A stretch of DNA of 42,668 bases from Lentisphaeria bacterium (GTDB lineage: Bacteria > Verrucomicrobiota > Lentisphaeria > Victivallales > UBA1829): assembly GCA_017963105.1 (NCBI GenBank), contig JAGCTY010000058.1, forward strand, positions 1 through 42,668, in the 5' to 3' direction. Below are positions 27,701-42,180 of this stretch, in pieces; position 1 is the first letter of the stretch, and every line of letters begins with the position of its first letter. Below the pieces are notes generated by a model. That model saw nothing but the letters and a program-made list of their open reading frames with translations. It made no database searches and was not told the origin of the DNA. A program made the translations under genes and the position numbers.

Positions 27701-27768
27701 AAGCTCAAATCCGGGCGCGCCTTCCATGAAAAGAAGGCGCGCCCGTTTTGTACGTTCATTTTGAGCTT
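27701..27768 (+). terminator. Strong terminator between the convergent GH3 and lipoprotein genes
   Basis: A perfect 12-base stem, GGGCGCGCCTTC (27713-27724) with GAAGGCGCGCCC (27733-27744), has an eight-base loop and is followed by GTTTTG on the plus strand. An outer pair, AAGCTCAAAT with ATTTTGAGCTT, extends the structure. It may also slow transcription from the minus side. Confidence 0.85.
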
Positions 27769-28216
27769 ACAGGAATCCGCAGGACAGCACACACGTCTCG
27801 TCGTCGACGTTCCCGGTCACGAGGCGGAACAGCATGTCCTGTTCGACCTCGTCCCCGTCCGTGGTGTCGCGTTCGAACTCCACACGCCAGATCAGGTTCC
27901 GCACCGCGGGCGTGTCCAGTTCAAGGACGTAATCATAGTCCCTGATCTTTCCGAGCGTGTCGCGCCAGTTGCCGCATGAGGTCCTGAAGTCCTTCTCGGT
28001 CATCTTCGACTGAAGCGGGCCGGGGATATTCTTCCTCAGCTTCGCGAAATCCTCGTCGCGGAACGATGCGAGGATGTTGTTCCCCAGCTCCACGGACCGC
28101 GCCAGTTCGGCATCGTCCGGGTCGACCAGGTTGAACTCGTCCTTTTCGACGACCACGCACGCGGCGAGGGAAAGCGAGCAGAAAAGCCCCAATACGGCAC
28201 AAACGATCTGTTTCAT
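27767..28216 (-). CDS. Small lipoprotein downstream of the first secretin pair
   Basis: This 149-residue protein has a lipoprotein signal peptide with lipobox LAAC (Cys20), so it is probably anchored in the outer membrane or on the periplasmic face of the inner membrane. The mature domain has FRDEDFAKLRKNIPG, MTEKDFRTSCGNWRDTLGKI and strands YDYVLELDTPAVRNLIWRVE and DEVEQDMLFRLVTG, a compact alpha/beta pattern like small DUF4019/NTF2-like lipoproteins. No family is claimed. The ribosome site GGAAAGGG precedes its ATG. It is 20 bases behind the second secretin-like gene and shares its promoter. A pilotin-like helper for secretin assembly is one possible role, by position only. The second secretin pair in the window has no such neighbour. 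Confidence 0.75.
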   Translation of the reverse strand: MKQIVCAVLGLFCSLSLAACVVVEKDEFNLVDPDDAELARSVELGNNILASFRDEDFAKLRKNIPGPLQSKMTEKDFRTSCGNWRDTLGKIRDYDYVLELDTPAVRNLIWRVEFERDTTDGDEVEQDMLFRLVTGNVDDETCVLSCGFL

Positions 28217-28236
28217 ACGTCAAACCCTTTCCGCGT

Positions 28237-29997
28237 TCAGATTTGAGGTTGCGGTACATCCGCCGGGATGTTCTGCGCGGGCATGACGGGGACCGCCATC
28301 GGCGCACCGCGCGTCTCTGCCTTCGAGGTGTTCCTGAGGTCGGGCTTGTCGGCGGGCGAATCCCATTCGCACTGCGCCATCACGACCAGCTCCGTGTGCT
28401 TGACCGAATTGGAAACCGAGCTGAAGAGATAGCCGAGCACGGGGATGTCCATGAGCCACGGCACGCCCGTGCGCGACTCGACTTCCTCCTGCTTCGTGAG
28501 GCCGCCGATCACGAACGTGTCCTTGCCGTGCGGCAGGCTGACGACCTGCTTCACCACGCCGCCGTTCGAAACGCGCGGCGCGCCGTTGGACTGGAATCCG
28601 AGCAGGCTGGTGTTGGAGAGCGTGATGTCGAAGCGCGTTTCCTCGAGGTTGACGGAGACGTTGTTCACGGTCATGGTGAATCCGAAACCGGTGAACGCCT
28701 TGATCTCCTGCGCCTCGCCCTTGCCGACCGGGAGCGGGTCGCCCTTGTCGAACACCTTGTTGATGATCTGCGAAAGCAGCTGGTACGGGCCGACGCCCAT
28801 GTCCGGCGTGGCCTGCGCCTTCGAAACGGCGGCGGAATCGTCGGAGTAGAGCAGCTGCGTGGTGCGCGCGAACGTGGCGCCCTCGGCGGCGTTGCGGATG
28901 CAGAGTTCGCCGGTGTGCAGGACCTTCGCCTTGCCGCGCGATTCCAGGAAGTCGATGTAGCGCGTGTTCCACTTCGGGTTGAAGTTGAAGTAGCTGGTGC
29001 GCTCGGAGCCATAGGCGGCGACCGGACCGACGCCGCCGCTGTACACGGACGACCAGTTGTTGCGGTAGCGCCCGCCGACGGAGAAGAAGTCCGCGCCCTC
29101 GTTGTTCTTCCAGCCCTGGAAGTCGATGCCGATGCGGTCGTCGTTTTCGGTGTCGAGCTCGTAGACCTTGATCTTCAGGCGGACCTGCGGGACCGGGACA
29201 TCGAACTTGGAGAGCATGTGCGCGATGTTGTCGCAGGAGTAGTTGCAGACGTCGAAGATGAGCCAGTTCAGGTCCGGATCGTACGCGACCAGGTCCATGC
29301 CCTGCCACACCTCCGACGCGTCGTTGATGTTCATGCCGACGTTTTCGATGAGCGGCATCAGGTTGCGCGCGGGCACGAATTTCGGCATGTAGATGTACAT
29401 CTGGTAGCCGTAGTTCAGCGCGCCGAGCGTGGGGTCGTCGAGCGTGGCGACCAGCGTGTCGATGCCGATGCCGTTCTCGTTGTCGCTGAAGCGGTACTCC
29501 TCGGCGCTCACGATGAGCAGCCCGGTGCCGTCGGCGTACTTCAGGCATTCGACGGCGGTGTTGCTGCCGAGCTGGACGGGCGGCGTGTAGCCGGGCTGGG
29601 CGTTTGCGGAGCCGAGCTCGACGGAACTTTCCGTGGCGAGGAACGGCGGCGCGGCGGTGTTCGACGGGTACTGCTGCTGGAGCATGGTGTTGCCGACGCG
29701 CTTGGTCTGGACCATCTGGCGCAGATAGTCGCGAAACTCATACGGGTCGACGTGCTGGAGCAGATAGGTCTTCGTGACCACGCGCGGGTCGTTGTTGTCG
29801 CGGATGAAATGCACGACCTTCGTGCCGGAATCCACGTTCACGTTCAGGCGGGCGACGATCCGCGTGGCGTCGTATCCGCCGGTGTTGTTGAAGTTGGAGT
29901 CGCGCGGGACGCCGGGCAGATCGGCGGCGTGCATGTTCAAATTCAGCAGGAACGCTGAGGCTGTCGCGAGAAAAGCAATGAGTTTGAATTGTTTCAT
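28237..29997 (-). CDS. Secretin-like protein, B member of pair 1
   Basis: This 586-residue protein has a signal peptide (MKQFKLIAFLATASAFLLNL region). N-terminal ring-like segments follow (RVVTKTYLLQHVDPYEFRDY; LLIVSAEEYRFSDN). The C-terminal domain resembles a secretin channel, with DTFVIGGLTKQEEV and the closing motif GVPWLMDIPVLGYLFS followed by TELVVMAQCEW. Secretins form outer-membrane rings for type II/III secretion, type IV pili or phage export. The segment IDFQGWKNNEGADFFSVGGR and FNFNPKWNTRYIDFLESRGK are shared with the B protein of pair 2. The ATG 29997 overlaps the stop of the A gene (ATGA, 29994-29997), so the two are translated together. No secretion ATPase or platform gene is nearby, so the exported cargo is unknown. 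Confidence 0.85.
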   Translation of the reverse strand: MKQFKLIAFLATASAFLLNLNMHAADLPGVPRDSNFNNTGGYDATRIVARLNVNVDSGTKVVHFIRDNNDPRVVTKTYLLQHVDPYEFRDYLRQMVQTKRVGNTMLQQQYPSNTAAPPFLATESSVELGSANAQPGYTPPVQLGSNTAVECLKYADGTGLLIVSAEEYRFSDNENGIGIDTLVATLDDPTLGALNYGYQMYIYMPKFVPARNLMPLIENVGMNINDASEVWQGMDLVAYDPDLNWLIFDVCNYSCDNIAHMLSKFDVPVPQVRLKIKVYELDTENDDRIGIDFQGWKNNEGADFFSVGGRYRNNWSSVYSGGVGPVAAYGSERTSYFNFNPKWNTRYIDFLESRGKAKVLHTGELCIRNAAEGATFARTTQLLYSDDSAAVSKAQATPDMGVGPYQLLSQIINKVFDKGDPLPVGKGEAQEIKAFTGFGFTMTVNNVSVNLEETRFDITLSNTSLLGFQSNGAPRVSNGGVVKQVVSLPHGKDTFVIGGLTKQEEVESRTGVPWLMDIPVLGYLFSSVSNSVKHTELVVMAQCEWDSPADKPDLRNTSKAETRGAPMAVPVMPAQNIPADVPQPQI

Positions 29998-31472
29998 TGT
30001 ACGGCTCCTTCCGCTTTTTCGACTTTCTTCAGTTCGCCGGTCTCGAAATCCAGCGTCTCGGGATGCGCGGTATCCAGCATCTTCGCCGTCACGGTGAGGT
30101 ACACGCGGGTCGTCTCGCGGTTGGTCGTGACGGTGCCGAAGACGTATTTGAGGATCGGAATGCGGCAGAGCCACGGGATGCCGATGGTCTGTTCCACCTC
30201 CTGCTCCTTGTCCCACTGGCCGAGCACGATCTCCTCGTTCAGCGGGATCAGGGCGTCGCTCGCGATCTCGCTGGTCTCGATCAGCTCCGTGCCGTCGCCC
30301 GCGCGCTCGACCGCGTTCGCGGCCTGCACGGCGTAGCCGAAGAACAGCGTGCCGTTCATGTCCGTGTACGTCCCCGGTTCATAGTTGTTCACGGAAAACG
30401 CCTCGCTCGCGGGGTATCCCGCCTGGGATTCGCCGTAGTGGAGGTTGACGAGCGGGCTGTTCACCTGCAGGAAGACCTGCGAGAATCCGGGCGGCAGGTT
30501 GAGCTGGTCGCCGACCACGCTCATGGCGTCGTTGTCGCTCTTCACGATGTTCTGAAGCTGCGGATTGAACTGGAGCGAATAGCTCTCCGTGTCGGAGTTC
30601 GCCACGGTCAGAGACGCGGTGTCCGTGACCTTCGCGTCGCCGCGCTGCGCGAGAAGCCGGATGAAGCTCGCGTCGAACTGGGGCGCGGCGAGGAATCCGC
30701 CGACCGGCCCGGTGATGGTGTTCAGCGCGGCGGTCCCGGCGGACGTCACGTTGATGACGTCGAATCCGACCTGAAAAATGTTCATGCCGGGCCCGTTTTT
30801 CCACGCCAGGTACTCGATCCCGAGGTCGCGGAACGTGCTTTCGCGGACCTCGTAGAGCTGGAAGGTGAGCGTGATCTGCGGCGCTGGGCGGTCGAGATAG
30901 CCGAGGAACTGGTACACGTACTGCGTGTTCGAGCTGTTGTCCTTCCAGTAGATCTGGTTGGAGTTGCGGTCCCAGGCGTACACGCTGCTGTACACGCCTT
31001 CGCCGATCTGCGAGTCGACCAGCACGTTCAGCAGCGCCTGCCCGGAACGGTATTTCGGGCGGTAGACGGCGCGCGTGATGCCGGTCCCCTTCACGATGTC
31101 GCCGGGGACTTTGCCGTCGATAAGGACATTTCGGTCAGCCTTCGCGATGAAGTCGTCCACGTACGGCATCATCTCGACGGGGCACGTCACGGTGAGCATT
31201 TGGGCGTTGTCCGCGCCGTACTCCACGCAGTTCACGGTGGAGTTCATGTTGTAGCGCATCACGATGCCCATCACGAACGGCGTGATGTCGTTGGCCTGGA
31301 TATATTTCAGGCGGTAGATCTTCGACACCATGTAGTCCTGGGCGTCGTCCTGCACGAATCGCAGGGTCTGGGTCGTGGCGTCGTCCGTGTTGCCGGCCGC
31401 GGTCTGTCCGGACAAAGCCGGAGACAGAACGGCGAGCGCGAGCAGCGGAATCAGCCGGGCTGTTTTGAGCAT
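29994..31472 (-). CDS. Secretin-like protein, A member of pair 1
   Basis: This 492-residue protein has a signal peptide (MLKTARLIPLLALAVLSPAL). An N1-like ring segment, SKIYRLKYIQANDITPFVMG, is followed by a second small domain (AQMLTVTCPVEMMPYVDDFI). The central part holds the hallmark RDLGIEYLAWKNGPGMNIFQ. The secretin-type end is EEIVLGQWDKEQEVEQTIGI, then PWLCRIPILKYVFGTVTTN and TRVYLTVTAKML. It is clearly paralogous to the A protein of pair 2 and more distantly related to both B proteins. The ribosome site AAGGAGGGAACC lies directly before ATG 31472; the longer frame from 31499 lacks one. It is the first gene of an A-B-lipoprotein operon. Confidence 0.85.
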   Translation of the reverse strand: MLKTARLIPLLALAVLSPALSGQTAAGNTDDATTQTLRFVQDDAQDYMVSKIYRLKYIQANDITPFVMGIVMRYNMNSTVNCVEYGADNAQMLTVTCPVEMMPYVDDFIAKADRNVLIDGKVPGDIVKGTGITRAVYRPKYRSGQALLNVLVDSQIGEGVYSSVYAWDRNSNQIYWKDNSSNTQYVYQFLGYLDRPAPQITLTFQLYEVRESTFRDLGIEYLAWKNGPGMNIFQVGFDVINVTSAGTAALNTITGPVGGFLAAPQFDASFIRLLAQRGDAKVTDTASLTVANSDTESYSLQFNPQLQNIVKSDNDAMSVVGDQLNLPPGFSQVFLQVNSPLVNLHYGESQAGYPASEAFSVNNYEPGTYTDMNGTLFFGYAVQAANAVERAGDGTELIETSEIASDALIPLNEEIVLGQWDKEQEVEQTIGIPWLCRIPILKYVFGTVTTNRETTRVYLTVTAKMLDTAHPETLDFETGELKKVEKAEGAVQ

Positions 31473-31552
31473 GGTTCCCTCCTTCTGGTTTTTGGGCATC
31501 CCTTTTCGTTTCTTGTCATGCGGGTGGTTCCGATGAAAAACCGCACACCGTT

Positions 31553-31580
31553 AATATACCGCGGATCCCGCCATTTTCAA
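31553..31580 (-). promoter_or_regulatory. Promoter of secretin operon 1
   Basis: On the minus strand TTGAAA (plus positions 31575-31580) is followed after 16 bases by TATATT (31553-31558), about 80 bases before the A gene. A partial inverted repeat CGCGCGAAA...TTTGCGCGCG lies directly upstream (about 31581-31603). Confidence 0.7.
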
Positions 31581-31603
31581 CGCGCGAAACTATTTGCGCG
31601 CGA

Positions 31604-31796
31604 AAGGATAACAGCGGAAAATCACGACAATCGGAGTGCGAGGGGGGCGAAGTGGACACCTCTGGCCCGTTTCTGTCCCGGGCAACCTGAAAAAAAATCA
31701 AAAACACATCGGTTCCTGCAATCATCGCCACGGCGCGATCTTTTTTCTTTTTTTTCGGTTCGCGGTCTTTAAAAAGACCGTTTGGAATGCTATATT
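31604..31796 (+). promoter_or_regulatory. Intergenic region with oxidoreductase promoter and overlapping palindrome
   Basis: No gene is seen between the two divergent operons. A -10 box TATATT lies at 31791-31796. The weak -35 (TTTAAA, 31768-31773) sits in the middle of a near-perfect hairpin, CGGTCTTT (31763-31770) with AAAGACCG (31773-31780). A repressor or activator bound there would control the oxidoreductase gene. A T-rich run (31738-31757) precedes it. Confidence 0.5.
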
Positions 31797-31890
31797 GATT
31801 CACAGGAAAGCCGTTGATGCGAAAAACGGCCCGGAACATACGATCCCGACCTCAAAATGAGCAAACAAACAACCCCGTCGTGAGGAACCT

Positions 31891-32847
31891 ATGAAAATTG
31901 CTGTCTGTGGAGCCGGAGCCGCCGGCGCCTACGCCGCAAAACGCCTTCGCCTCAATCTTCCCGAAGCCGAAATCCTGCTCTTCGACGCCGCGCCCGTCGG
32001 GTTCTACGCAAAAATGCGCCTCCCCGAATACCTGGCCGGCACACTCCCCCGTGAAAAGCTCATCCTCTCCTCGCCCGAACAAATGGCGGACTGGGGCGTG
32101 GAGCTTCACCTCGGAGAACCGGTGACGACCGTTTCCCCCGCCTCGCACACGCTCACAACCGTCGCCGGGGAATATGCCTGGGACGTGCTCGTCCTGGCCA
32201 TCGGCGCGCACGCGTTCGTGCCGCCCATCCCCGGACTGGCAGCGAGTTCGCGCGTACATGTCCTCCGCGAACTCCCGGACGCCGATGCCCTGGTCTCGCT
32301 GTGCGAACCGGGAAAAAGCGCCGCAGTCATCGGCGGCGGTCTGCTCGGACTGGAAGCCGCCTGGTCGCTCCACAAGCGCGGGCTCGCGGTGTCCGTCATC
32401 GAGACCGCGCCGCGTCTGCTCCCGCTCCAAATGAACGAAGAGGAATCCGCCGTCCTGCTGTCCAACTTCACGAACGCCGGGTTCAATGTTTACACCGGGG
32501 CCGCGGTCGAAAGTTTCGACGATGCTTCCGCCCAGCTCTTCCTCAAGGACGGCACTGCCGTCCCCGCCTCGCTCGTGCTTGTCTCCGCCGGGATCCGTGC
32601 AAACCTCGAACTCGCGAAGAATGCCGGGTTGACCTGCAACCGGGGGATCGTCGTGGACGCCGCTCTCCGGACGTCCGCGCCGGACGTGTACGCAGTCGGG
32701 GACTGCGCCGAGCTGAACGGCGTGATCACCGGGCTCTGGCTCGCCTCGAAAGACCAGGGTGAAGCCGTCGCCGACATCATCGCGGGAAAGATCGCCTCCA
32801 TGCCCCCGAAAACCTACCGCCCCAAACCAAAACTCCCGGCTTTTTGA
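31891..32847 (+). CDS. FAD-dependent pyridine nucleotide oxidoreductase (rubredoxin/nitrite reductase-like)
   Basis: This 318-residue cytoplasmic flavoprotein would move electrons from NAD(P)H through FAD to a small redox partner. The FAD-binding GxGxxG is at residues 7-12 (CGAGAAGAYAAKRL). The NAD-binding Rossmann motif is AAVIGGGLLGLEAAW near 145-158, and the C-terminal FAD motif is VYAVGDCAEL. There is no CxxC redox pair and no C-terminal dimerisation domain, so it is a short member like rubredoxin or NirB-type reductases. The ribosome site GAGGAA is close to the ATG. The following CYTH gene starts 53 bases later on the same strand. The electron acceptor is unknown; oxygen or peroxide detoxification in an anaerobe is one possibility. 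Confidence 0.88.
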   Translation: MKIAVCGAGAAGAYAAKRLRLNLPEAEILLFDAAPVGFYAKMRLPEYLAGTLPREKLILSSPEQMADWGVELHLGEPVTTVSPASHTLTTVAGEYAWDVLVLAIGAHAFVPPIPGLAASSRVHVLRELPDADALVSLCEPGKSAAVIGGGLLGLEAAWSLHKRGLAVSVIETAPRLLPLQMNEEESAVLLSNFTNAGFNVYTGAAVESFDDASAQLFLKDGTAVPASLVLVSAGIRANLELAKNAGLTCNRGIVVDAALRTSAPDVYAVGDCAELNGVITGLWLASKDQGEAVADIIAGKIASMPPKTYRPKPKLPAF

Positions 32848-32900
32848 GTTCAAATCCGTTTTCGTTTCATTCTCCCGTCCCCAGCAGAAAAGACTCCCCC

Positions 32901-33386
32901 ATGCATCTTGAAATCGAACGTAAATTCCTCGTCAAAGACCTTTCCTGGAAAGAATCCGCAACCTCGTCCAAAGACTTTCAGCAGGGTTATTTTCCCACGG
33001 GCGACGGCGTGACGGTCCGCGCCCGCATCGCGGGCGACAAGGCCCGGCTTACGATCAAAGGCCCGATCAACGACATTTCCCGCGCCGAATTCGAATACCC
33101 CGTCCCGCTCGCAGACGCAATCGCATTCCTCACCGATTTCTGCATCAAACCCGTCATCCTGAAACGCCGCTGGTATGTGCCGTTCGGCGAGTTCACCTGG
33201 GAAATCGACGAGTTCGCCGGAAAAAACGAAGGCCTGATCGTCGCGGAAGTCGAGCTTGACGCCCCCGACCGCGAGTTCCCCGTCCCCCCCTGGCTCGGAC
33301 GCGAGGTCACCCACGAGTCCAGGTTCCGCAACTCCCGCCTCGTCCGGCATCCGTTCTGCGAATGGACCGACGAGGAAAAACGTTGA
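32901..33386 (+). CDS. CYTH domain protein (triphosphate tunnel metalloenzyme)
   Basis: This 161-residue protein begins with the family hallmark LEIERKFLVKD, the ExExK motif that opens the beta-tunnel. Later basic and acidic strands (GVTVRARIAGDKARLTIKGP, FTWEIDEFAGKNEGLIVAEV) complete the tunnel. Enzymes of this type hydrolyse inorganic triphosphate or thiamine triphosphate with Mg or Mn ions. Length matches short bacterial members. ATG 32901 is chosen because the protein starts directly with the motif; the frame is open to a TTG at 32844 but those residues are not family-like. It follows the oxidoreductase gene and is probably co-transcribed with it. Confidence 0.92.
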   Translation: MHLEIERKFLVKDLSWKESATSSKDFQQGYFPTGDGVTVRARIAGDKARLTIKGPINDISRAEFEYPVPLADAIAFLTDFCIKPVILKRRWYVPFGEFTWEIDEFAGKNEGLIVAEVELDAPDREFPVPPWLGREVTHESRFRNSRLVRHPFCEWTDEEKR

Positions 33387-33463
33387 GAGTTTACGTTTTG
33401 AGGAGACGGAAATCCTGATGCCGCGTTTTCCCACGCCGGCACGGGATACCACACAGGACAAAT

Positions 33464-34369
33464 TCAGCGGCCATTCCCGCGGGGGATGCGGTGTGCGCCC
33501 GGCGCGACCGGGATCGAATCGTTTTTCGACGGGGAGGTGATTTGCCTCGCGGCGGCGCCGGGGATGCGGTGCTGACTCGCCGAAACCGGAATCTGCGCAT
33601 TGCTTCCCGGAAACTCGATTTGCCTCGCGGCGGCGCCGGGGATGCGGTGCTGGTCCGGCACCACGGGAATCGTATTGTCCGAGGATTTCGGGCGGACGGT
33701 CTTCTGTGTGCGGGAGCCGCCGCGCTCGCCACCGCCGTCAACGACGATCCCGCCGCCCGGCCGCGGTCCGGGCCCCGGACGGAACGGGCCGTCGGGAGGA
33801 GGCGGAGGGGGAATCCATCCGGGCGGTTCAGGCGGACGCGGACCGCGCCGCCCCCAGAACCATGCGTCGGAATAATAGAACCATCCTTTGTAATACGGCA
33901 CATAGTCGCCGAAAAAGAACGCGTAGTAGAACGGGGGATGCGAGTCGTCATCCTCCGCAATCGTCGCGGGAACGGCTGCGGCCACGGCCGGTTCGGCCTC
34001 TTTCTGTACGTTTTCCGCAACGGCAGCTTCCGGCGCATCGGTGTCCGCATCGGGGACGACAACGTCCGGCAGGGTGACGGTCGGCCTGACCGTAACGACC
34101 CGGGGTCCGGAGGAATTCGCGGCCGACGGCACGGCCTTGCCTGAAACGGCGCGTTCCACGGGCGAGGAAAGGACCGGAGATGGGGACGGGTCCACGACTG
34201 TCCGCAGCAGATTCACGAGGTCCGCAACGCCAAGCAGGTCGACTTCTTCCTCCTCCGGGGACAGGCTCGTCTGCGAAAATGCCGCCGGGGCGAGAAAAAC
34301 GGCGGCGAACAGGAAGGCGGCAACGCCGCGGACGCGCACAAACGCCGATAAACCGTCGAGTATTCTCAT
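33464..34369 (-). CDS. Secreted repeat-containing protein of unknown function
   Basis: This 301-residue protein has a signal peptide (about residues 1-30, VRGVAAFLFAAVFLAPAAFS). An acidic Pro/Val/Ala-rich region follows, then an aromatic stretch (FYYAFFFGDYVPYYKGWFYY, about 145-170) and a Pro/Gly-rich part. The C-terminus has three copies of a repeat of about 26 residues with the core IPV...HRIPGAAARQI; the last copy is shortened to HRIPRGNGR. The start ATG 34369 has GGAG upstream; the frame to 34420 would add residues before the signal peptide. No enzyme family is recognised. Low complexity and repeats suggest a surface or envelope structural protein. It stands alone on its strand behind a strong promoter. 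Confidence 0.75.
   Translation of the reverse strand: MRILDGLSAFVRVRGVAAFLFAAVFLAPAAFSQTSLSPEEEEVDLLGVADLVNLLRTVVDPSPSPVLSSPVERAVSGKAVPSAANSSGPRVVTVRPTVTLPDVVVPDADTDAPEAAVAENVQKEAEPAVAAAVPATIAEDDDSHPPFYYAFFFGDYVPYYKGWFYYSDAWFWGRRGPRPPEPPGWIPPPPPPDGPFRPGPGPRPGGGIVVDGGGERGGSRTQKTVRPKSSDNTIPVVPDQHRIPGAAARQIEFPGSNAQIPVSASQHRIPGAAARQITSPSKNDSIPVAPGAHRIPRGNGR
33477..33652 (-). repeat. 78-base-spaced repeats in the 3' end of the secreted repeat protein
   Basis: A perfect 36-base identity occurs at 33539-33574 and 33617-33652, 78 bases (26 codons) apart. A partial third copy lies near 33477-33500. Perfect identity at the DNA level points to recent duplication. Confidence 0.85.
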
Positions 34370-34425
34370 GCCTGACTCCGCCTCCTTCCGTATGCAAATT
34401 CCGATTCCGGTCGCAACCAACAGTT

Positions 34426-34453
34426 ATAATAGCATAAAAAAAGCGTTTGTCAA
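34426..34453 (-). promoter_or_regulatory. Strong promoter of the secreted repeat protein gene
   Basis: On the minus strand TTGACA (plus positions 34448-34453) is followed after 16 bases by TATTAT (34426-34431). On the plus strand the same -35 site reads TTGTCA and is followed 15 bases later by a consensus TATAAT (34468-34473), so a divergent promoter may overlap. Confidence 0.7.
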
Positions 34454-34473
34454 GCGGAATGCGCTGCTATAAT

Positions 34474-34593
34474 CGTTGACAATGATGGAATTGAGAGCGG
34501 CCCGGCGACGGGAAACGCGTATATCGGAAGCATGGCGCGGGGCCGCCCCGCCCGCGGGAAGCACGTCGCCGCGGGCAGGAGTCCGGCACGATC
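34474..34593 (+). other. GC-rich hairpin cluster, possible small RNA or 3' structure
   Basis: No protein gene is supported. Two strong hairpins follow one another: GCGGGG with CCCCGC near 34535-34550, and CCCGCGG with CCGCGGG near 34551-34576. They lie downstream of the possible plus-strand TATAAT. They could equally be the 3' structure of the DUF1847 operon, which ends at 34594 on the other strand. There is no good U-tract in either direction directly behind the hairpins. Confidence 0.3.
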
Positions 34594-35328
34594 TTACTTT
34601 TTCTTTTTCCCGGCTTTTTGTTTTTTCGCGGCTTCCTCGGCCTCGACCGCCTCTTTGCGCGGCTCGGGGAAGGTCTTCTCGTCCAGTACGCGCTTGTAGT
34701 AGAACTTCGCGGTGTAGAGCGCGGCGGCTGGGTTATGCCCGAGCACGCGGTCTTTCACGATGAACGTGGTGACCGGGGCCTTGCTGTGGCGCGTGAAGAT
34801 CGCGTCGTGTCCGACGCACAGCCCGACCAGCACGTTGAGCTCCGCGCCCCACTCGTTGAGGATCTGCGCCTGAAGCGCCGGGTTGCAGCAGGATTCGTTG
34901 CAGCCGGGGCAGACCTTCAGGCCGTCGGGCAGCCCGATGTCACACTTGTCGACCGCTCCGACCTTGCAGATCACGGTCTTCGTCTCGATCCCGGCGGTGC
35001 GGACGATCTGAGCATAAAGAGAGGCTTCGTCGAGCAGGCCGATGCAGCTGGCGATGCCGAGCTTCTTCACGCCGAGCTTCTTGGCAAACCGGATGGTCTC
35101 TTCCAAACGGGTCAGGCGTCCGTAGTATTCGCCCTCGATCTCGGCGGCGGCGCGTGCGATGCGTCCATCCAGCGAATTGGAGCTGTACAGCTTTTTCGTC
35201 TGCTCGACGGCGCCCTTGTACTGTTCCGTGAGGCAGAAAGAGGGATATTGTTTTTCTTTGCGGTAGCAGTTCCGCACGGAACATTCGGAGCAGCTGAGGC
35301 TGCATGGTTGTTTCTTGGTCTTGGGCAT
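34594..35328 (-). CDS. DUF1847 Cys-rich (putative metal-binding) protein
   Basis: This 244-residue cytoplasmic protein has an N-terminal Cys cluster (CSLSCSECSVRNCYRKEKQY). Further Cys-rich sites are IASCIGLLDEA and KVCPGCNESCCNPALQAQIL, and a LVGLCVGHDAIFTRHSKAPV segment follows. This matches my recollection of DUF1847, a family common in anaerobes and thought to bind metal through its cysteines. The C-terminus is a Lys/Glu/Ala tail. Its ATG has AGGAGA upstream and is 54 bases behind the ABC ATPase gene, so it is probably the fourth gene of the importer operon. A role in handling the imported compound or its metal is inferred from position only. Confidence 0.85.
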   Translation of the reverse strand: MPKTKKQPCSLSCSECSVRNCYRKEKQYPSFCLTEQYKGAVEQTKKLYSSNSLDGRIARAAAEIEGEYYGRLTRLEETIRFAKKLGVKKLGIASCIGLLDEASLYAQIVRTAGIETKTVICKVGAVDKCDIGLPDGLKVCPGCNESCCNPALQAQILNEWGAELNVLVGLCVGHDAIFTRHSKAPVTTFIVKDRVLGHNPAAALYTAKFYYKRVLDEKTFPEPRKEAVEAEEAAKKQKAGKKKK

Positions 35329-35382
35329 GATCAGGGTCTCCTGAATTGAATGTGTTCAAGATTTAAGCGGGACGAAGGGGGG

Positions 35383-36186
35383 TCAGATGCCGTTTCCGGA
35401 GTGGAACGAGTCTTTCAAGTTCAGTTTTTCGTTCATGTCGGCGCGGTAGATGTCCATGATCCTCCGCTGGAGCGAAATGACGGATTCGTTTTCGAAGAGC
35501 TTTTCCCTGGGAAGCTGGCGGGAGACGGGGTTCTGTTCCAGCGCGATGACGCGTCCGGGCGAACTGCCGAGCACGGCGATCTCCGTCCCGAGGTACAGCG
35601 CCTCGTCGACGTCGTGCGTGACGAATACCACGGTACGGGCTCCGCGCGAATCCCGGTGAAGCTCCCGGACCAGGTCCTGGAGCATCGCCCGGTTCACGGG
35701 GTCGAGCGCGCCGAACGGCTCGTCCATGAGCAGGATTCTGCTCGGGACAGCAATGGCGCGGGCGATGGCGGCGCGCTGGCGCATGCCGCCGGAAAGCGCC
35801 GCCGGGTACTGGTTGAACACGCTGCCGAGCCCGACCATTTCCAGGTAGGATTCCGCCAGGTTGCGGATTTCCGCCTTGCTCTTCTGCGGGAAGGATGCCG
35901 ACAGCGCGAGAATCAGGTTCTTCCCTGTGGTCATCCAGGGGAAAAGCGAGTAGTCCTGAAACACCACGGAGCACGCCGGTTCCGGGCCGTCGACCGCTTT
36001 GCCGTCCACGAGGACGTCCCCGGAGGTCGGTTTCAGCAACCCGGCGATCGTCCGCAGGAGCGTGGACTTGCCGCAGCCGGACTGTCCGAGCAGGCAGAGG
36101 AACGCGCCGTCATGGACGGTGAGGTTGATCCGGTCCAGAATGGTTTTGCCGTGGAACGCCACGGATAAATCCTTGCACGCAATCAT
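35383..36186 (-). CDS. ABC transporter ATP-binding protein (NitT/TauT family)
   Basis: This 267-residue protein is the cytoplasmic motor of an ABC importer. Walker A is GQSGCGKS (34-41), the Q-loop is SVVFQDYSLFPWMT, the signature is LSGGMRQRAAIARA, Walker B is ILLMDEPFGALD and the H-loop is VFVTHDVDEAL. All residues needed for ATP hydrolysis are present. The start is ATG 36186, which overlaps the permease stop (ATGA, 36183-36186). Similarity in layout to the nitrate/taurine/alkanesulfonate importers is clear from the neighbouring permease and binding protein. Confidence 0.95.
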   Translation of the reverse strand: MIACKDLSVAFHGKTILDRINLTVHDGAFLCLLGQSGCGKSTLLRTIAGLLKPTSGDVLVDGKAVDGPEPACSVVFQDYSLFPWMTTGKNLILALSASFPQKSKAEIRNLAESYLEMVGLGSVFNQYPAALSGGMRQRAAIARAIAVPSRILLMDEPFGALDPVNRAMLQDLVRELHRDSRGARTVVFVTHDVDEALYLGTEIAVLGSSPGRVIALEQNPVSRQLPREKLFENESVISLQRRIMDIYRADMNEKLNLKDSFHSGNGI

Positions 36187-37073
36187 TCTCTGACCTCCTT
36201 GTAGCGCAGGATGCGCTTTTCGATCCGCTTGAACCCGGCGGAGATCGCCGTGATCACAAGCCCGATGAAGATGATGCCGACGATGACTCTGGCGTAGTCG
36301 CCGAAGTCGGCGCGGTCCTTCACGTACCACCCGAGCCCTTCCGTCGCGCCGATCAGCTCGGCGGCGGTCAGCAGCAGGAAGCTGAAAACGAGGCTCAGGG
36401 ACGCCCCGGTCAGGATCGACGGCATGGCGCCCGGAAGAAGCACGCGGAAGATGAACGTGCGGCGCTTCAGGTGGAGCATCCGGGCGGAGTCCAGCATGGT
36501 CTCCGGGATGTTCACGACGCCGGCGACGGTGTTCGCGAAGACCGGCCAGAACGCGCCGGACCAGATCACGAAGATCGAGGCGGCGCTGAAGCTCGGCAGC
36601 AGCCGGATGGCGTACGGGATGTACACGATCGGAGGAATCACGCTCAGGACCTTGCTGAACGGTTCCACGGCGTTGCGGAGGCGCGTGGAGCTGCCGACCA
36701 GCAGGCCGCCGGGGATCGCAGTCCCCAGCGACAGAAGGTACGCGGTCCCCAGCAGGTAGAGCGAGGAGAGCAGGCCGTGCGCCATGTCCTTCAGTTCGCC
36801 GAAGAACTGCCGCAGGACGGTTTCCGGGGCGGGGAAGTACACGGGATCAAGCAGCGGCCAGTCGGACGTGACCAGCTGCCACGCCAGCAAGAATCCTTCC
36901 AGGACAGCGGCCACGTCAATGATCGCGGTGCGGCGGGACTTGTCCCACACGAGGAGCGTCCGGACCAGGGCGGCGGCGGGGATCAGGACGCCCGCAGCGG
37001 CGATGAACCAGTCGTGTTTCCACACCGCCGCGGCGGCCAGGAGAATGAATTCGATGACGAGCAGTATCTTCAC
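36183..37073 (-). CDS. ABC transporter permease (NitT/TauT family)
   Basis: This 296-residue inner-membrane protein has about seven hydrophobic helices. The cytoplasmic coupling (EAA-like) region is SARMLHLKRRTFIFRVLLPG, followed by AMPSILTGASLSLVFSFLLL. The PAPETVLRQFFGELKDM segment before the core is typical of SsuC/TauC-type permeases. One extra N-terminal hydrophobic region (residues 1-45) is present. It lies between the lipoprotein and ATPase genes, 55 bases behind the former and overlapping the latter. Confidence 0.94.
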   Translation of the reverse strand: MKILLVIEFILLAAAAVWKHDWFIAAAGVLIPAAALVRTLLVWDKSRRTAIIDVAAVLEGFLLAWQLVTSDWPLLDPVYFPAPETVLRQFFGELKDMAHGLLSSLYLLGTAYLLSLGTAIPGGLLVGSSTRLRNAVEPFSKVLSVIPPIVYIPYAIRLLPSFSAASIFVIWSGAFWPVFANTVAGVVNIPETMLDSARMLHLKRRTFIFRVLLPGAMPSILTGASLSLVFSFLLLTAAELIGATEGLGWYVKDRADFGDYARVIVGIIFIGLVITAISAGFKRIEKRILRYKEVRE

Positions 37074-37128
37074 GATTCCACCTGAATTCGGATTTTTCGG
37101 TAATGATTCGAGGCTGAAAATACGTTCC

Positions 37129-38181
37129 TCAGTTGTTCGCCTTGAAGAAGGCGTCCATTTCTTTGTAGATGGGGTCGTCGGGATAGCGTTTCAGGACCTC
37201 GTCGAGGGCTTCCCGGTAGATCGTGGGGTCGATATGGTCGTCGATATGCACGTCGTTCTCCGGGAGGTAATCGATCTCCTTCATGGTCTCCCAGAAGTCG
37301 ACCGTGCCCTTCTTCAGCGGGTCGGGGTTGGACGTGAAGGTCCTGTTCGTGTAGGTGTCGGCCTTCAGCAGTTCAGGGTCCAGCTTGAACGCCTTCGCGA
37401 AGATCTGAATGGTCTCCGCCTCGTTCTCGCGGTAGAACTTGTATGCGCGGATCTCGGCGATGAGGTAGCGGCGGTAGATGTCGCGTTTCTTCTGAAGGTC
37501 CGGGGTATTGGCGATCAGGCGGCAGCAGGTATAGTCCGGCTGGAAGTCGGCGATATAGTTCGAGACTTCGAGGCCGAAGTTCTTCTTCGCGAGGGAGAAA
37601 TGGGGACTGAATACGATGCCTGCGTCCACGGCGCCCTTGTTCACGGCCTCCACGACGGCGCTCTGACCGCCGAATTCGATGATCTCCAGGTCCTTGTTCG
37701 GGTCGATCCCGGCCTTCTTCAGCGCGCCGCGGAAGATCACGTCGCCGGTGGAGAGTTTGCCGAGGCCGACCTTCTTGCCCTTGAAGTTGCTCAGGTCTTT
37801 GAACTTGTCGAGGTTCTCCGGCTTCACGATGATGGCCTGGCCGCCGATCATCATGCCGCCGAAAATCGTGAAGTCGACGCCGCGGGCGATGAACAGCAGC
37901 GGAGCCGCCGTGCCGAACGTGCCGACGTCAAGTTTCTGCGCCTGGACCGCAGAGCAGCCCTCGGCGGTCGTGTTGAACTGGAAGAGGTCGACGTCGAGGT
38001 TTTCCTCGTCGAAATAGCCCAGGTCCTTCGCGATGAAGTGAAGGCCGTGCGCGGGTTCGGCGAGGTAGCCGACGCGGACCTTGTCCTTGCCTGCTGCGTT
38101 TTCCTTGCCGCAGCCGGCGAGGAAGAAGGTCGAAAGGATCCCTGCGGCAAGCAGGGGGATGAGCGTATGTTTGATGTCCAT
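37129..38181 (-). CDS. ABC transporter substrate-binding lipoprotein (NMT1/SsuA-like)
   Basis: This 350-residue lipoprotein has a signal peptide ending in FFLAGC (lipobox). The mature part has the type II periplasmic-binding fold pattern of NMT1/SsuA/TauA proteins: VRVGYLAEPAHGLHFIAKDL, LDVGTFGTAAPLLFIARGVD and GKKVGLGKLSTGDVIFRGAL. It binds the transported solute outside the inner membrane. The start ATG 38181 has AAGGAG nine bases upstream; a TTG two codons earlier is less likely. It is the first gene of the importer operon. The ligand cannot be read from sequence; aliphatic sulfonates, nitrate-like anions and pyrimidine precursors are all carried by this family. Confidence 0.93.
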   Translation of the reverse strand: MDIKHTLIPLLAAGILSTFFLAGCGKENAAGKDKVRVGYLAEPAHGLHFIAKDLGYFDEENLDVDLFQFNTTAEGCSAVQAQKLDVGTFGTAAPLLFIARGVDFTIFGGMMIGGQAIIVKPENLDKFKDLSNFKGKKVGLGKLSTGDVIFRGALKKAGIDPNKDLEIIEFGGQSAVVEAVNKGAVDAGIVFSPHFSLAKKNFGLEVSNYIADFQPDYTCCRLIANTPDLQKKRDIYRRYLIAEIRAYKFYRENEAETIQIFAKAFKLDPELLKADTYTNRTFTSNPDPLKKGTVDFWETMKEIDYLPENDVHIDDHIDPTIYREALDEVLKRYPDDPIYKEMDAFFKANN

Positions 38182-38215
38182 GATCAATGTCTCCTTACAT
38201 GGTAGTGATTTTAGA

Positions 38216-38252
38216 TTGAAAGAAAGCCGCGGATGTTTGTCGCATCCGCGGC
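38216..38252 (-). terminator. Terminator of secretin operon 2
   Basis: On the minus strand a perfect 10-base stem, GCCGCGGATG with CATCCGCGGC (38226-38252), has a seven-base loop and is followed by TTTCTTTC. It lies just behind the last secretin gene and before the ABC importer operon, for which no good promoter is visible. Confidence 0.8.
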
Positions 38253-38275
38253 AGATGTGTTTGAATTACGCGGGA

Positions 38276-39898
38276 TTATTCGATCTTGCCGGAGTCGAGG
38301 CCGAACTGTTCGAACCCGAGGTTGGTGATCGGGTGTTCGATGCCGTGCGTCAGGCCGTCGTCGACCTCCTTCAGCTCGTCTTTGAGTTCCGCGGTGATGT
38401 TGTCGAACGGGGTGGCGAGTTCGGCGTGCACCGTGAGCACAAGCTCTGTCTCGCGGGCGGATTCGGATTCGGAGGAGAACGCCCAGCCGAGGATCGGGAT
38501 GTCCTTCAGGATCGGGAGGCCGGACACGCTGCGGACGATCTGCTTGCGCTTGATGCCGCCGATCACGAAGTCGCGGGCTTCGTAGCCGAGGTGGATTTCC
38601 GTCTCGAAACTGGACTCGCTGAGGCGCGGGGTGCCGTCGCTGTTCCAGCCGAGCAGGCTCACGCCGGAGACCTTCACGGGGAGGACGGACGCCTTGCCGG
38701 TCACGATCGGAGTGACTTCGAAGTTGAACTTGAAGCCCTGGGATGCCTTCGTGTTCTGGGCATTGCCGTGTTCGAGCGGGACATCGGCGCGGGCGGGCAG
38801 TTTCGGCTTGCCGTCGATCACGACGTCGCTGTTGATGGAGGTGTCCTTGATCGGATCCTCTTCCTCATAGAACAGGCCCGAGCCGACCGAAATTTCCGAT
38901 TTGCGGCGGTTTTTCGCCGTGATGGTGCCCTGCGTGACGACTTTCGCACGTCCGGTGGAGGTCAGGAAATCGAAGTACTTGGTGTTCCACTTCGGGTTGA
39001 AGTTGAAGAAGTCGGTGCGGCTGCTGTGGGAGCCGTTGATGCCGCCCGCGAAGGTGGTCGCCCAGTTGTTGCGGTAGCGGCCGCCGGCGGAGAAGAAGTC
39101 GACGCCGTCGTTGTTCTTCCAGCTCTGGAAGTCGACGCCGAGCTTGTCGTCATTCTCGGAGCTGATCTCGAGGAGCTGGTAGGACAGGCGGATTTCGGGC
39201 ATCGGCTTGTCATACTGTTCGAGCTGTTCCTTGATGGCGTTCCAGCTCCAGAAGGGAGCTGCGACGAACAACGCGTTCAGGCCGCCGTCGACGATCAGGT
39301 TATCCACGCCGTGCGTGAACTCGACGTCATTGCCGGACGCGCCGACGTTCTTCACCATTTCGCGGAGATTGGCGGCGGCATTCACCTTCGGGAAGTAGAT
39401 GAACCGCGCCTTGCCGCTGGTGTAGAGCATGCCGGGCTGGTCGAGCTCGGCGATGATCTCGTCGATGCTGTCGCCCTTGCCGTTGTTCTCGAACCGGTAG
39501 TCTTCGGCGGAGACCAGCACCACGCCGCGGCCGTCGTTGAACTTGACGGCGTCGACCTGGACCGGGCTTTGGTTGATCTGCACGCCCTTCACGACGTTCA
39601 GCAAATAGCCGCGGATCGCATAGGGACTGGCGTGTTTGAGCTCATAGAGCTTCGTGACGACGAAGGGGTCGGTGTTGCCGCGAACGAAATGGACCGCCTC
39701 GTCGGTGTCCTTCAGGTCCACGCGGATCTGCGTCTGGACCGTGCTGCTGCCGTAGCCCTCGGTCGGATTGTTGTTGCCGGCGTTCGTGCCGCCGGGGATG
39801 CCGCGCGGGATAACCTCAATGGTCTGGTCCTGGGCGGATATTGCGAGTGCCGAGGCGGAGATGGCGGCGGCGAGGAAGGATTTCAGAAAGATGTTCAT
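38276..39898 (-). CDS. Secretin-like protein, B member of pair 2
   Basis: This 540-residue protein has a signal peptide (MNIFLKSFLAAAISASALAI) and the same layout as the B protein of pair 1. The N-terminal ring segment is VVTKLYELKHASPYAIRGYL. The middle contains VDFQSWKNNDGVDFFSAGGR and FNFNPKWNTKYFDFLTSTGR, nearly identical to pair 1. The secretin end is RDFVIGGIKRKQIVRSVSGL, then PILKDIPILGWAFSSESES and TELVLTVHAELATP. A transporter ring in the outer membrane is expected. It begins 19 bases behind its A partner and is followed by a terminator, with no lipoprotein gene. The segment VNAAANLREMVKNVGASGND corresponds to the same region of the pair 1 protein (FVPARNLMPLIENVGMNIND). Confidence 0.86.
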   Translation of the reverse strand: MNIFLKSFLAAAISASALAISAQDQTIEVIPRGIPGGTNAGNNNPTEGYGSSTVQTQIRVDLKDTDEAVHFVRGNTDPFVVTKLYELKHASPYAIRGYLLNVVKGVQINQSPVQVDAVKFNDGRGVVLVSAEDYRFENNGKGDSIDEIIAELDQPGMLYTSGKARFIYFPKVNAAANLREMVKNVGASGNDVEFTHGVDNLIVDGGLNALFVAAPFWSWNAIKEQLEQYDKPMPEIRLSYQLLEISSENDDKLGVDFQSWKNNDGVDFFSAGGRYRNNWATTFAGGINGSHSSRTDFFNFNPKWNTKYFDFLTSTGRAKVVTQGTITAKNRRKSEISVGSGLFYEEEDPIKDTSINSDVVIDGKPKLPARADVPLEHGNAQNTKASQGFKFNFEVTPIVTGKASVLPVKVSGVSLLGWNSDGTPRLSESSFETEIHLGYEARDFVIGGIKRKQIVRSVSGLPILKDIPILGWAFSSESESARETELVLTVHAELATPFDNITAELKDELKEVDDGLTHGIEHPITNLGFEQFGLDSGKIE

Positions 39899-39917
39899 GG
39901 TTCACGTTCCTTTCTGC

Positions 39918-41468
39918 TCAGATGGTGCTGACGTTTGCATTTTTGCCGGGTTCGGCTTTTTCTTCCGCCGCGGCTTCTTCATCGGGATCGGGCACGGGGG
40001 CGGATTCGGTTTCAACAGGCACGATGTGGCCGTCCGGGTGGATGAGCGACGCTTCGGCGGTCACGACGATGTAGGTGCGCTCCTTGATGCTGGTGGTGGT
40101 GCCGAAGAGGTATTTCAGCACGGGGATCTTCACCAGGAACGGGATGCCGATGGTCTGCTCGACGTCGTTTTCCTTGATGTAGGAGGCGAGGAGCTTTTCG
40201 GTCTTGAACCCGAGGGTGAGCTCGCCGCCGACGGAACTGGAGTCGCCCAGTTCGTCGCCGCGGTTGCTGCGTTCCGTCACGCTCTTCGACGCGAGCTTGT
40301 ACGCGAACACCACGCCGCCGTTATTCTTCTCGTAGAACTCCTGCGAGGACGGGATTTCGCCCTTCGATTCGATCTCGTCCTCGGAGGCGCCGAAGCAGAT
40401 GACCGGGTTGATGACGGAGAGCGTGAGGCTGCTGTCGCCGCCGGTGACCACACTCGAACGGTCATCGTCGTCCTTCGTGATGTTTTCGTAGCCCGGGGTG
40501 AGCTGGGCGGTGTAAACTTTCGGGAGGTGCGTGTTCAGCGCGGGCAGTTCGTAGACCGGCGTGTTGATGAACGTCAGGTTCGCCTGCGCCGCCAACTTGG
40601 CGTTGCCGGACTGCTGGAGCACGCGGATGAAGCTCAGGTCGAACTTCGGCGCAGTGAAGAACCCGCCGTAGCCCCAGCCCGTAGAAAAGTCCTTCGTGAG
40701 GTCGACCAGCTGGGACACGCCGCCGATCACGTCGAAGACCGCCTCGGTAGAGAAGATCTTGCCGGTATCGAATCCGGCGCTGAAGATGTCGAGGCCGGGG
40801 CCGTTCTTCCATGCCAGGTAGTCCAGCCCGATGTCGCGCAGCTTGCTTTCGCGGATTTCATAGTATTTGAGGTGGAGCTCCACCTGGGGGAGCGGACGGT
40901 CCAGGTACTTGACCCAGGAGAGTGCCGCCAGCGCGGCGCCTTTGTCGTCTTTCCAGTAGATGGTGTTCGTGTCCTCGTTCAGGTACATCATCCCTTCGGG
41001 GGTCTTCAGCCCTTCGTTGATGATGCGGACGATGTCGGCGGCGGCGCGGTAGTTCGGGGTGTACGTGATGCGCGTGATGCCCGTGCCTTCGATGATGGAG
41101 CCGTTGGCGTCTTCCTTGCCCGGCTTGTCAAGCCCGGCGATCAGTTCGTCCACGTAGGGCAGGAAATCTTCGCCCGTCGAGACCAGAAGGTACTTCTTGT
41201 TGGTCTCGTAGTTGTTCACGCGTTCCACCTGCGAACGGTCGCTGTAGCGCTTGACCGCGGCGAGGATGAACGGGCGGATGTCCGTCGGCTTCGTGTATTT
41301 CAGCTCGTAGAGCTTGCTGGCGAAACGGACCTGCGCATCGTCCTGAAGCAGCTTGATGGTCCGGACTTCCTTCTCCGGTTCCTTTGCCGGTTCCTGCGCG
41401 GGCAGCAGCGACGCGCCCGCGATGCTTGCGCCCAGAAGGCGCGCGATCAGATGTTTATAGTTGGTCAT
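39918..41468 (-). CDS. Secretin-like protein, A member of pair 2
   Basis: This 516-residue protein has a signal peptide (about residues 1-24, ending LLPAQEPA) and is paralogous over its length to the A protein of pair 1. Shared blocks are ASKLYELKYTKPTDIRPFIL, TGITRITYTPNYR, NTIYWKDDKG and RDIGLDYLAWKNGPGLDIFS. The end is QTIGIPFLVKIPVLKYLFGT, followed by TYIVVTAEASLIHPDG. It ends in an acidic Glu/Ala/Pro tail. ATG 41468 has AGGAA upstream; the frame to 41552 adds Pro/Thr/His-rich residues before the signal peptide and is rejected. The promoter is about 310 bases upstream. Confidence 0.86.
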   Translation of the reverse strand: MTNYKHLIARLLGASIAGASLLPAQEPAKEPEKEVRTIKLLQDDAQVRFASKLYELKYTKPTDIRPFILAAVKRYSDRSQVERVNNYETNKKYLLVSTGEDFLPYVDELIAGLDKPGKEDANGSIIEGTGITRITYTPNYRAAADIVRIINEGLKTPEGMMYLNEDTNTIYWKDDKGAALAALSWVKYLDRPLPQVELHLKYYEIRESKLRDIGLDYLAWKNGPGLDIFSAGFDTGKIFSTEAVFDVIGGVSQLVDLTKDFSTGWGYGGFFTAPKFDLSFIRVLQQSGNAKLAAQANLTFINTPVYELPALNTHLPKVYTAQLTPGYENITKDDDDRSSVVTGGDSSLTLSVINPVICFGASEDEIESKGEIPSSQEFYEKNNGGVVFAYKLASKSVTERSNRGDELGDSSSVGGELTLGFKTEKLLASYIKENDVEQTIGIPFLVKIPVLKYLFGTTTSIKERTYIVVTAEASLIHPDGHIVPVETESAPVPDPDEEAAAEEKAEPGKNANVSTI

Positions 41469-41812: not shown

Positions 41813-42107
41813 GCAATTCACGACACAAAAGGTAGATTTTTATGAAAAAAGTTTCGTTTTGAGGGTATTCCGCGTGTGAATCACCGCCGGGTCACTACAA
41901 TTATGACACCTCACAAACACGCGCGGATGCGGGAGGGGACGAACTCCGGTTGGGGACATATTGAGGTAAAGCCCGAGGCAATCGAACGGCCGAATCTTTC
42001 ACAGAGGGAAACGGAGCGACGGCACGCAGTCCGAAAGAAAAAGGTACGAACGCGGATCGCGGAAACAACGGATCGGAACCTGCCCGGCCGCGCGGGCACA
42101 AAAAAAG
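41813..42107. other. Noncoding stretch between secretin operon 2 and tRNA-Lys
   Basis: No gene, known RNA or clear regulatory site was found. Open frames here lack ribosome sites and protein-like composition. A GC hairpin (GCCCGGCCGCGCGGGC) near 42081-42097 lies downstream of the tRNA, but its T run is on the wrong side for a standard terminator. Confidence 0.5.
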
Positions 42108-42180
42108 TGAGCTGGCAGGGACTCGAACCCTGGACCACCGCCTTAAAAGGGCGATGCTCTACCGACTGAGCTACCAGCCC
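42108..42180 (-). tRNA. tRNA-Lys (anticodon TTT)
   Basis: Read on the minus strand, the acceptor arm GGGCTGG pairs with CCAGCTC with one G-T pair. The D arm is GCTC/GAGC, the anticodon stem TCGCC/GGCGG holds loop CTTTTAA, and the T arm is CAGGG-TTCGAGT-CCCTG. The anticodon TTT (42145-42147) reads lysine AAA/AAG codons. The 3' CCA is not encoded. A probable promoter lies upstream: TTGCTT (42228-42233), 16 bases, TATTTT (42206-42211), minus strand. Confidence 0.96.

Follow-up and report, generated by a model that had tools for sequence, protein, structure and literature searches.

The window analysed here, by which we mean the whole stretch of 42,668 nucleotides, contains two operons that each encode two different secretins, which we call A and B. 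The features relevant to the argument are as follows.

27767-28216, minus strand: C1, a lipoprotein of only 149 aa with the lipobox LAAC, immediately downstream of B1 and of a family that adjoins A-B loci
28237-29997, minus strand: B1, the more canonical secretin (586 aa; PF00263 E=2.9e-17)
29994-31472, minus strand: A1, a divergent secretin (492 aa, from the ATG at 31472; PF00263 E=1.8e-9)
35383-36186, minus strand: ATPase of the ABC transporter below, read from the sequence (267 aa from MIACKDL)
36183-37073, minus strand: NitT/TauT-type ABC permease (PF00528, 1.2e-21)
37129-38181, minus strand: TauA/NMT1-type periplasmic substrate-binding protein (PF13379, 1.9e-18; PF09084, 4.9e-18), 94 bp after B2
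38276-39898, minus strand: B2, the more canonical secretin (540 aa; PF00263 E=4.9e-18 over positions 2-167 of 169)
39918-41468, minus strand: A2, a divergent secretin (516 aa; PF00263 E=1.1e-6, Secretin_N E=1.4e-5)
42107-42180, minus strand: tRNA-Lys(TTT), upstream of A2 and about 640 bp from its start

By their coordinates, the B1 start and the A1 stop overlap by 4 bases, and 19 bp separate A2 from B2. A2 is the first gene of an operon that runs through B2 into the ABC transporter, whose genes lie directly downstream of B2, between the two secretin pairs. The earlier note on this DNA, whose interval began at the edge of C1 (27767), had described open reading frames of 492/516 (A) and 586/540 (B) residues in this order and tightly spaced, and had matched A1 with A2 and B1 with B2. 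Both descriptions are borne out, with global alignments giving 39% identity for A1-A2 and 38% for B1-B2.

Secretin identity, pairing and inheritance

As the earlier note had supposed, both profile and fold identify A1, B1, A2 and B2 as genuine secretins. Each of the four passes the Pfam cut-off for PF00263 (27.5 bits), which disposes of the objection that a secretin domain might be lacking; they failed the NCBIfam equivalog tests for GspD, PilQ and SctC, scoring ~26-71 bits against cut-offs of 238-351. AlphaFold2 models of moderate confidence (pLDDT 68.8 for A1 and 69.5 for B2) place two alpha/beta periplasmic domains ahead of the secretin domain in A1, and in B2 too alpha/beta periplasmic domains precede it. 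Foldseek searches with these moderate-confidence models returned 48 matches for A1 and 42 for B2 at E<=0.001, which were secretins throughout and included GspD, ExeD, PulD, XcpQ, InvG, PilQ and pIV. Profile searches against the PDB concur with the secretin fold, the best PDB sequence match of the A profile being pIV.

The two operons of the window are both present as had been claimed, but they are not the full complement, since the source genome holds four A-B pairs: two in the window, A3-B3 on contig C72, and A4-B4 on contig C93, where the pair is cut by the contig end. The A proteins of this genome are 36-39% identical to A1 and its B proteins 35-40% identical to B1. Close relatives have about five pair types, with copy numbers of up to about five in this group of gut and rumen bacteria. 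We examined 80 named loci (Lentisphaeria or Victivallales according to their titles) and 80 from relatives, some genomes occurring in both sets, from which 92 non-redundant pairs were left after dropping A proteins more than 80% identical.

Pairing in the order Victivallales is strict. B was the next gene after A in 160 of 164 A calls, with the other four falling at contig ends or in a broken gene, and the gap between A and B was at most 100 bp in 89 of the 92 non-redundant pairs, 15 of which overlap. In a draw of 289 genomes from the phylum, A was found in 69 and B in 69, the listed genomes being identical for both, and all listed carriers but one belong to Victivallales, within which families f8 and f5 have no A-B pair. 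The single exception among the 289 (G284, contig 131) comes from a different family within the class, and could reflect transfer or contamination, or else be an outlier of the group.

Tree distances for A and B were correlated with r = 0.95 (mirrortree), against a maximum of 0.14 in 1000 permutations, and 37 of 44 strongly supported splits in the A tree were found again in the B tree. From this mirroring it follows that inheritance and duplication act on the pair as a whole. The pairing check proposed in the earlier note thus gave no sign of homologues that usually occur singly, and its picture of an ancient A/B split followed by duplication of whole pairs agrees with the trees.

A and B share the motif WKN(N/G)xG, as had been noticed from the window alone; it is present in 88 of 92 A and 87 of 92 B non-redundant proteins and absent from the two other secretins of the same genome that were checked. 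In the glycines that are canonical for the secretin domain, however, the two differ: B retains them and A has lost most. By column count, in an alignment whose column assignments rest on only four canonical secretins, the second gate-side glycine has a frequency of 0.02 in A and 0.74 in B, the GG pair 0.32/0.01 in A against 0.98/0.98 in B, and the LG glycine 0.02 in A against 0.95 in B. In T2SS secretins, glycine pivots flanking the central gate govern its opening and its watertightness (PMC10550240). The absence from A of glycines that B retains suggests a division of labour between the two proteins.

These observations bear on whether A and B might form two separate homo-oligomeric rings joined by co-transcription alone, a question of geometry that is compatible with any model of the cargo. 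In favour of separate rings, the secretins of solved structure to which A and B were matched assemble as homo-oligomers, and nothing points directly to an A-B interface. However, A and B are never found apart, their trees mirror one another and they differ in the glycines they keep, so that we regard separate rings as doubtful and favour a joint A-B complex.

Neighbouring genes

The order A-B-SBP-permease-ATPase of the A2-B2 operon is kept in four other loci (L119, L124, L133, L192), in which the ATPase homologues are also 267 aa long. A3-B3 is followed by FeoA-FeoB, as are pairs in L132, L134, L154 and L191; in L159 only FeoA is present. In several genera PstS-PstC-PstA lies downstream of B (L094, L097, L106, L138, L164, L181). 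In many loci A-B(-C) is flanked by a glutamate decarboxylase and antiporter or by an Orn/Lys/Arg decarboxylase and antiporter; the Victivallis vadensis type strain (L080) has the order decarboxylase - antiporter - A - B - C - antiporter - decarboxylase. Single cases comprise a polar amino-acid ABC system (L185) and another SBP-permease-ATPase system (L169). A 115-aa protein with no Pfam match (L095:4582-4929, with similar proteins in L100, L106 and L181) is encoded either immediately downstream of B or with PstS on one side and PstC on the other.

Chance proximity was rejected by comparing Pfam tallies for 136 same-strand operon neighbours with those for 128 genes in the flanks of those loci. 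AA_permease was counted 10 times among the neighbours, PstS-like substrate-binding proteins 8 times and ABC permeases 6 times, each against at most one among the flanking genes; the neighbours also included 9 decarboxylases, 3 FeoA, 2 FeoB and 2 NMT1, with no transporter class seen more than once in the flanks. Pooling five transporter classes gives 28 against at most 5 (Fisher p ~2e-5, in a test that treats neighbours as independent). At the level of pairs, A-B resembles a porin-like solute channel in its genetic linkage to a matching inner-membrane transporter, with 28 of the 92 non-redundant pairs linked in this way (acid 11, pst 10, feo 3, tau 2, paat 1, SBP-permease 1); the other 64 have no such transporter in view, in some cases because the contig ends. 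The linkages are clustered on the A tree, which shows 19 changes of label where the null minimum was 21, and the independent linkage events are therefore few, perhaps 6-8.

The lipoprotein family to which C1 belongs lies directly after B or directly before A in 44 of the loci in the first, named set and adjoins 33 of the 92 non-redundant pairs, about a third. Nine of 32 members weakly match DUF3887 (best E 1.4e-4), C1 itself giving no match, and searches of the PDB returned only insignificant matches, several of them to NTF2-like proteins. The possibility that C is a known pilotin was rejected, as no convincing match to PulS/AspS, PilF or InvH was obtained in Pfam, NCBIfam or the PDB; one member reached E 0.023 against InvH. 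One type of locus has the gene order C-A-B-MarR, with the MarR-family regulator directly after B (L116:788-1294, minus strand; similar genes in L141, L149, L161 and L184), and this regulator is likely an autoregulator.

Such loci could be taken to mean that A-B(-C) is an envelope or stress module called upon under particular conditions (acid, or limitation of phosphate or iron), which is co-regulated with the transporters but does not pass their solutes, acting for example by altering outer-membrane permeability or releasing stress proteins. The MarR-family regulator of the C-A-B type fits this idea, as do the many A-B-C operons that stand alone and the fact that acid-resistance genes are the commonest partner. 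However, what the diverse partners (Pst, Feo, Tau and amino-acid systems) have in common is solute transport and not any one stress, and we consider a stress module unlikely by comparison with a conduit for the transported solutes themselves.

The linkage to transporters also weighs on the proposal of the earlier note that A-B serves an undescribed export path. Its observation that no ATPase, platform protein or pilin is nearby was confirmed for the window, and in the loci that were read no secretion ATPase, platform protein or (pseudo)pilin accompanies the pairs. T2SS and type IV pilus components are encoded on other contigs, with dedicated secretins of their own, and A-B as a part of either system was rejected on locus anatomy. 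One type IV pilus locus (L030:6564-16973, minus strand) comprises PilM, PilN/O-like genes and two tandem long secretins of 891 and 971 aa. A phage origin was likewise rejected, the sole PHROG match of note being the generic pIV family, with no phage genes around the pairs.

A-B could nonetheless be the outer-membrane gate of a protein or filament export path, in the form of hetero- or nested rings, which shares a T2SS/T4P ATPase and platform encoded elsewhere. In favour of this, secretins have no known role other than that of export gates; the genome does encode ATPases and platform proteins of the T2SS and pilus types at other sites; and prepilin-like genes abound in these genomes, some of them near pairs. 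Set against this, the T2SS and T4P loci have their own secretins, and neighbourhoods across the order point to small-solute transporters and decarboxylases. In the loci read, no linked export gene favours an export path, which is not supported by these findings, and we judge it improbable beside a solute conduit.

Outer-membrane context and proposed function

Among ten genomes of the order surveyed for three families, a subset of those that form porins and receptors, none encodes a TonB-receptor barrel (PF00593), OprO/P (PF07396) or OprB (PF04966), and Omp85 is present in all ten. Two of the ten, from family f8, have neither those families nor A-B, which means that other outer-membrane channels must exist. 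In one locus (L065:5066-7767), ExbB, ExbD and a TonB-type protein lie directly before A-B, in an order whose sampled genomes are without the TonB-receptor barrel.

We propose that the two secretins act jointly as a gated conduit in the outer membrane, used by the small solutes of the linked transporter, and put the probability of this at about 0.5. Both proteins would be exported by Sec and would always act together, assisted in some cases by lipoprotein C, to make a gated conduit across the outer membrane. That conduit would serve the solutes of the adjoining inner-membrane system, whether amino acid/amine exchange coupled to a decarboxylase, phosphate, ferrous iron, NitT/TauT substrates or polar amino acids. 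After duplication of whole pairs, each copy would have come to be controlled by a different operon for uptake or exchange, and in these bacteria the pairs may take over some of the tasks usually performed by porins and TonB receptors.

Against a solute conduit stands the behaviour of canonical secretins, which let through folded proteins or filaments and have gates that exclude small molecules (PMC10550240). Pointing the same way as a solute channel is a lone 519-aa secretin in the same genome's MacAB-type operon (L031:5106-10291, minus strand), where TolC would be expected; the genes directly behind it encode an adaptor of the HlyD/MacA type, an ATPase read from the sequence as that of an ABC transporter, and a permease of the MacB/FtsX type. 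The broader proposition, that a diderm order without the tested porin and TonB-receptor families turned secretins into modular two-component (A+B) gated solute conduits, each wired to its own inner-membrane system, is one that we hold more tentatively.

To our knowledge, secretins have been regarded only as homo-oligomers that gate the export of proteins, pili and phages. If true, our reading would widen these roles to two different secretins acting as an inseparable pair in nutrient and acid-resistance operons, and would suggest a route of solute uptake for bacteria without common porins and TonB receptors. V. vadensis is cultured and carries a linked A-B operon, so the idea can be tested.

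Comparison with known systems

The literature searched on Lentisphaerae and Victivallis secretins and on secretin-porins, in which subscription journals were thinly covered, gave no description of such A-B pairs. The closest structural relatives are the T2SS secretins GspD/ExeD/PulD/XcpQ together with PilQ and InvG, which gave the best Foldseek and HMM matches and share with A and B the same fold of ring domains and a secretin domain. A-B operons differ from GspD, PilQ and InvG in having two different secretins per operon and no T2SS, T4P or T3SS partners, in carrying the WKN motif, and in an A protein without the gate and GG glycines. The pIV protein of filamentous phage is a short secretin like A and B, but the latter have no surrounding phage genes, occur as four chromosomal pairs and always have two partners. 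Within the PVC group, the Amuc_1098-type PilQ of Akkermansia, the most abundant outer-membrane protein there (PMC4960237), is also a secretin; it is, however, a 907-aa protein encoded by one gene in a pilus locus, and B scores <=31 bits against its cut-off of 750, with no match for A.

A functional precedent for the solute-conduit reading is found in the arginine:agmatine exchange operon aaxABC of Chlamydia, which has its own outer-membrane porin, AaxA (PMC2720952). There as here, and in the same superphylum, a decarboxylase, an antiporter and a dedicated outer-membrane protein are found in one operon, although the outer-membrane part is a porin in aaxABC and a secretin pair in our loci. AaxA presumably belongs to the OprB family (PF04966), which is absent from the sampled genomes. 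For phosphate, the porins OprO/OprP and PhoE are outer-membrane pores, formed by beta-barrel trimers, that are induced with the Pst phosphate system. PF07396 is absent in the ten sampled genomes, and A-B stands in that place beside pst in ten non-redundant loci.
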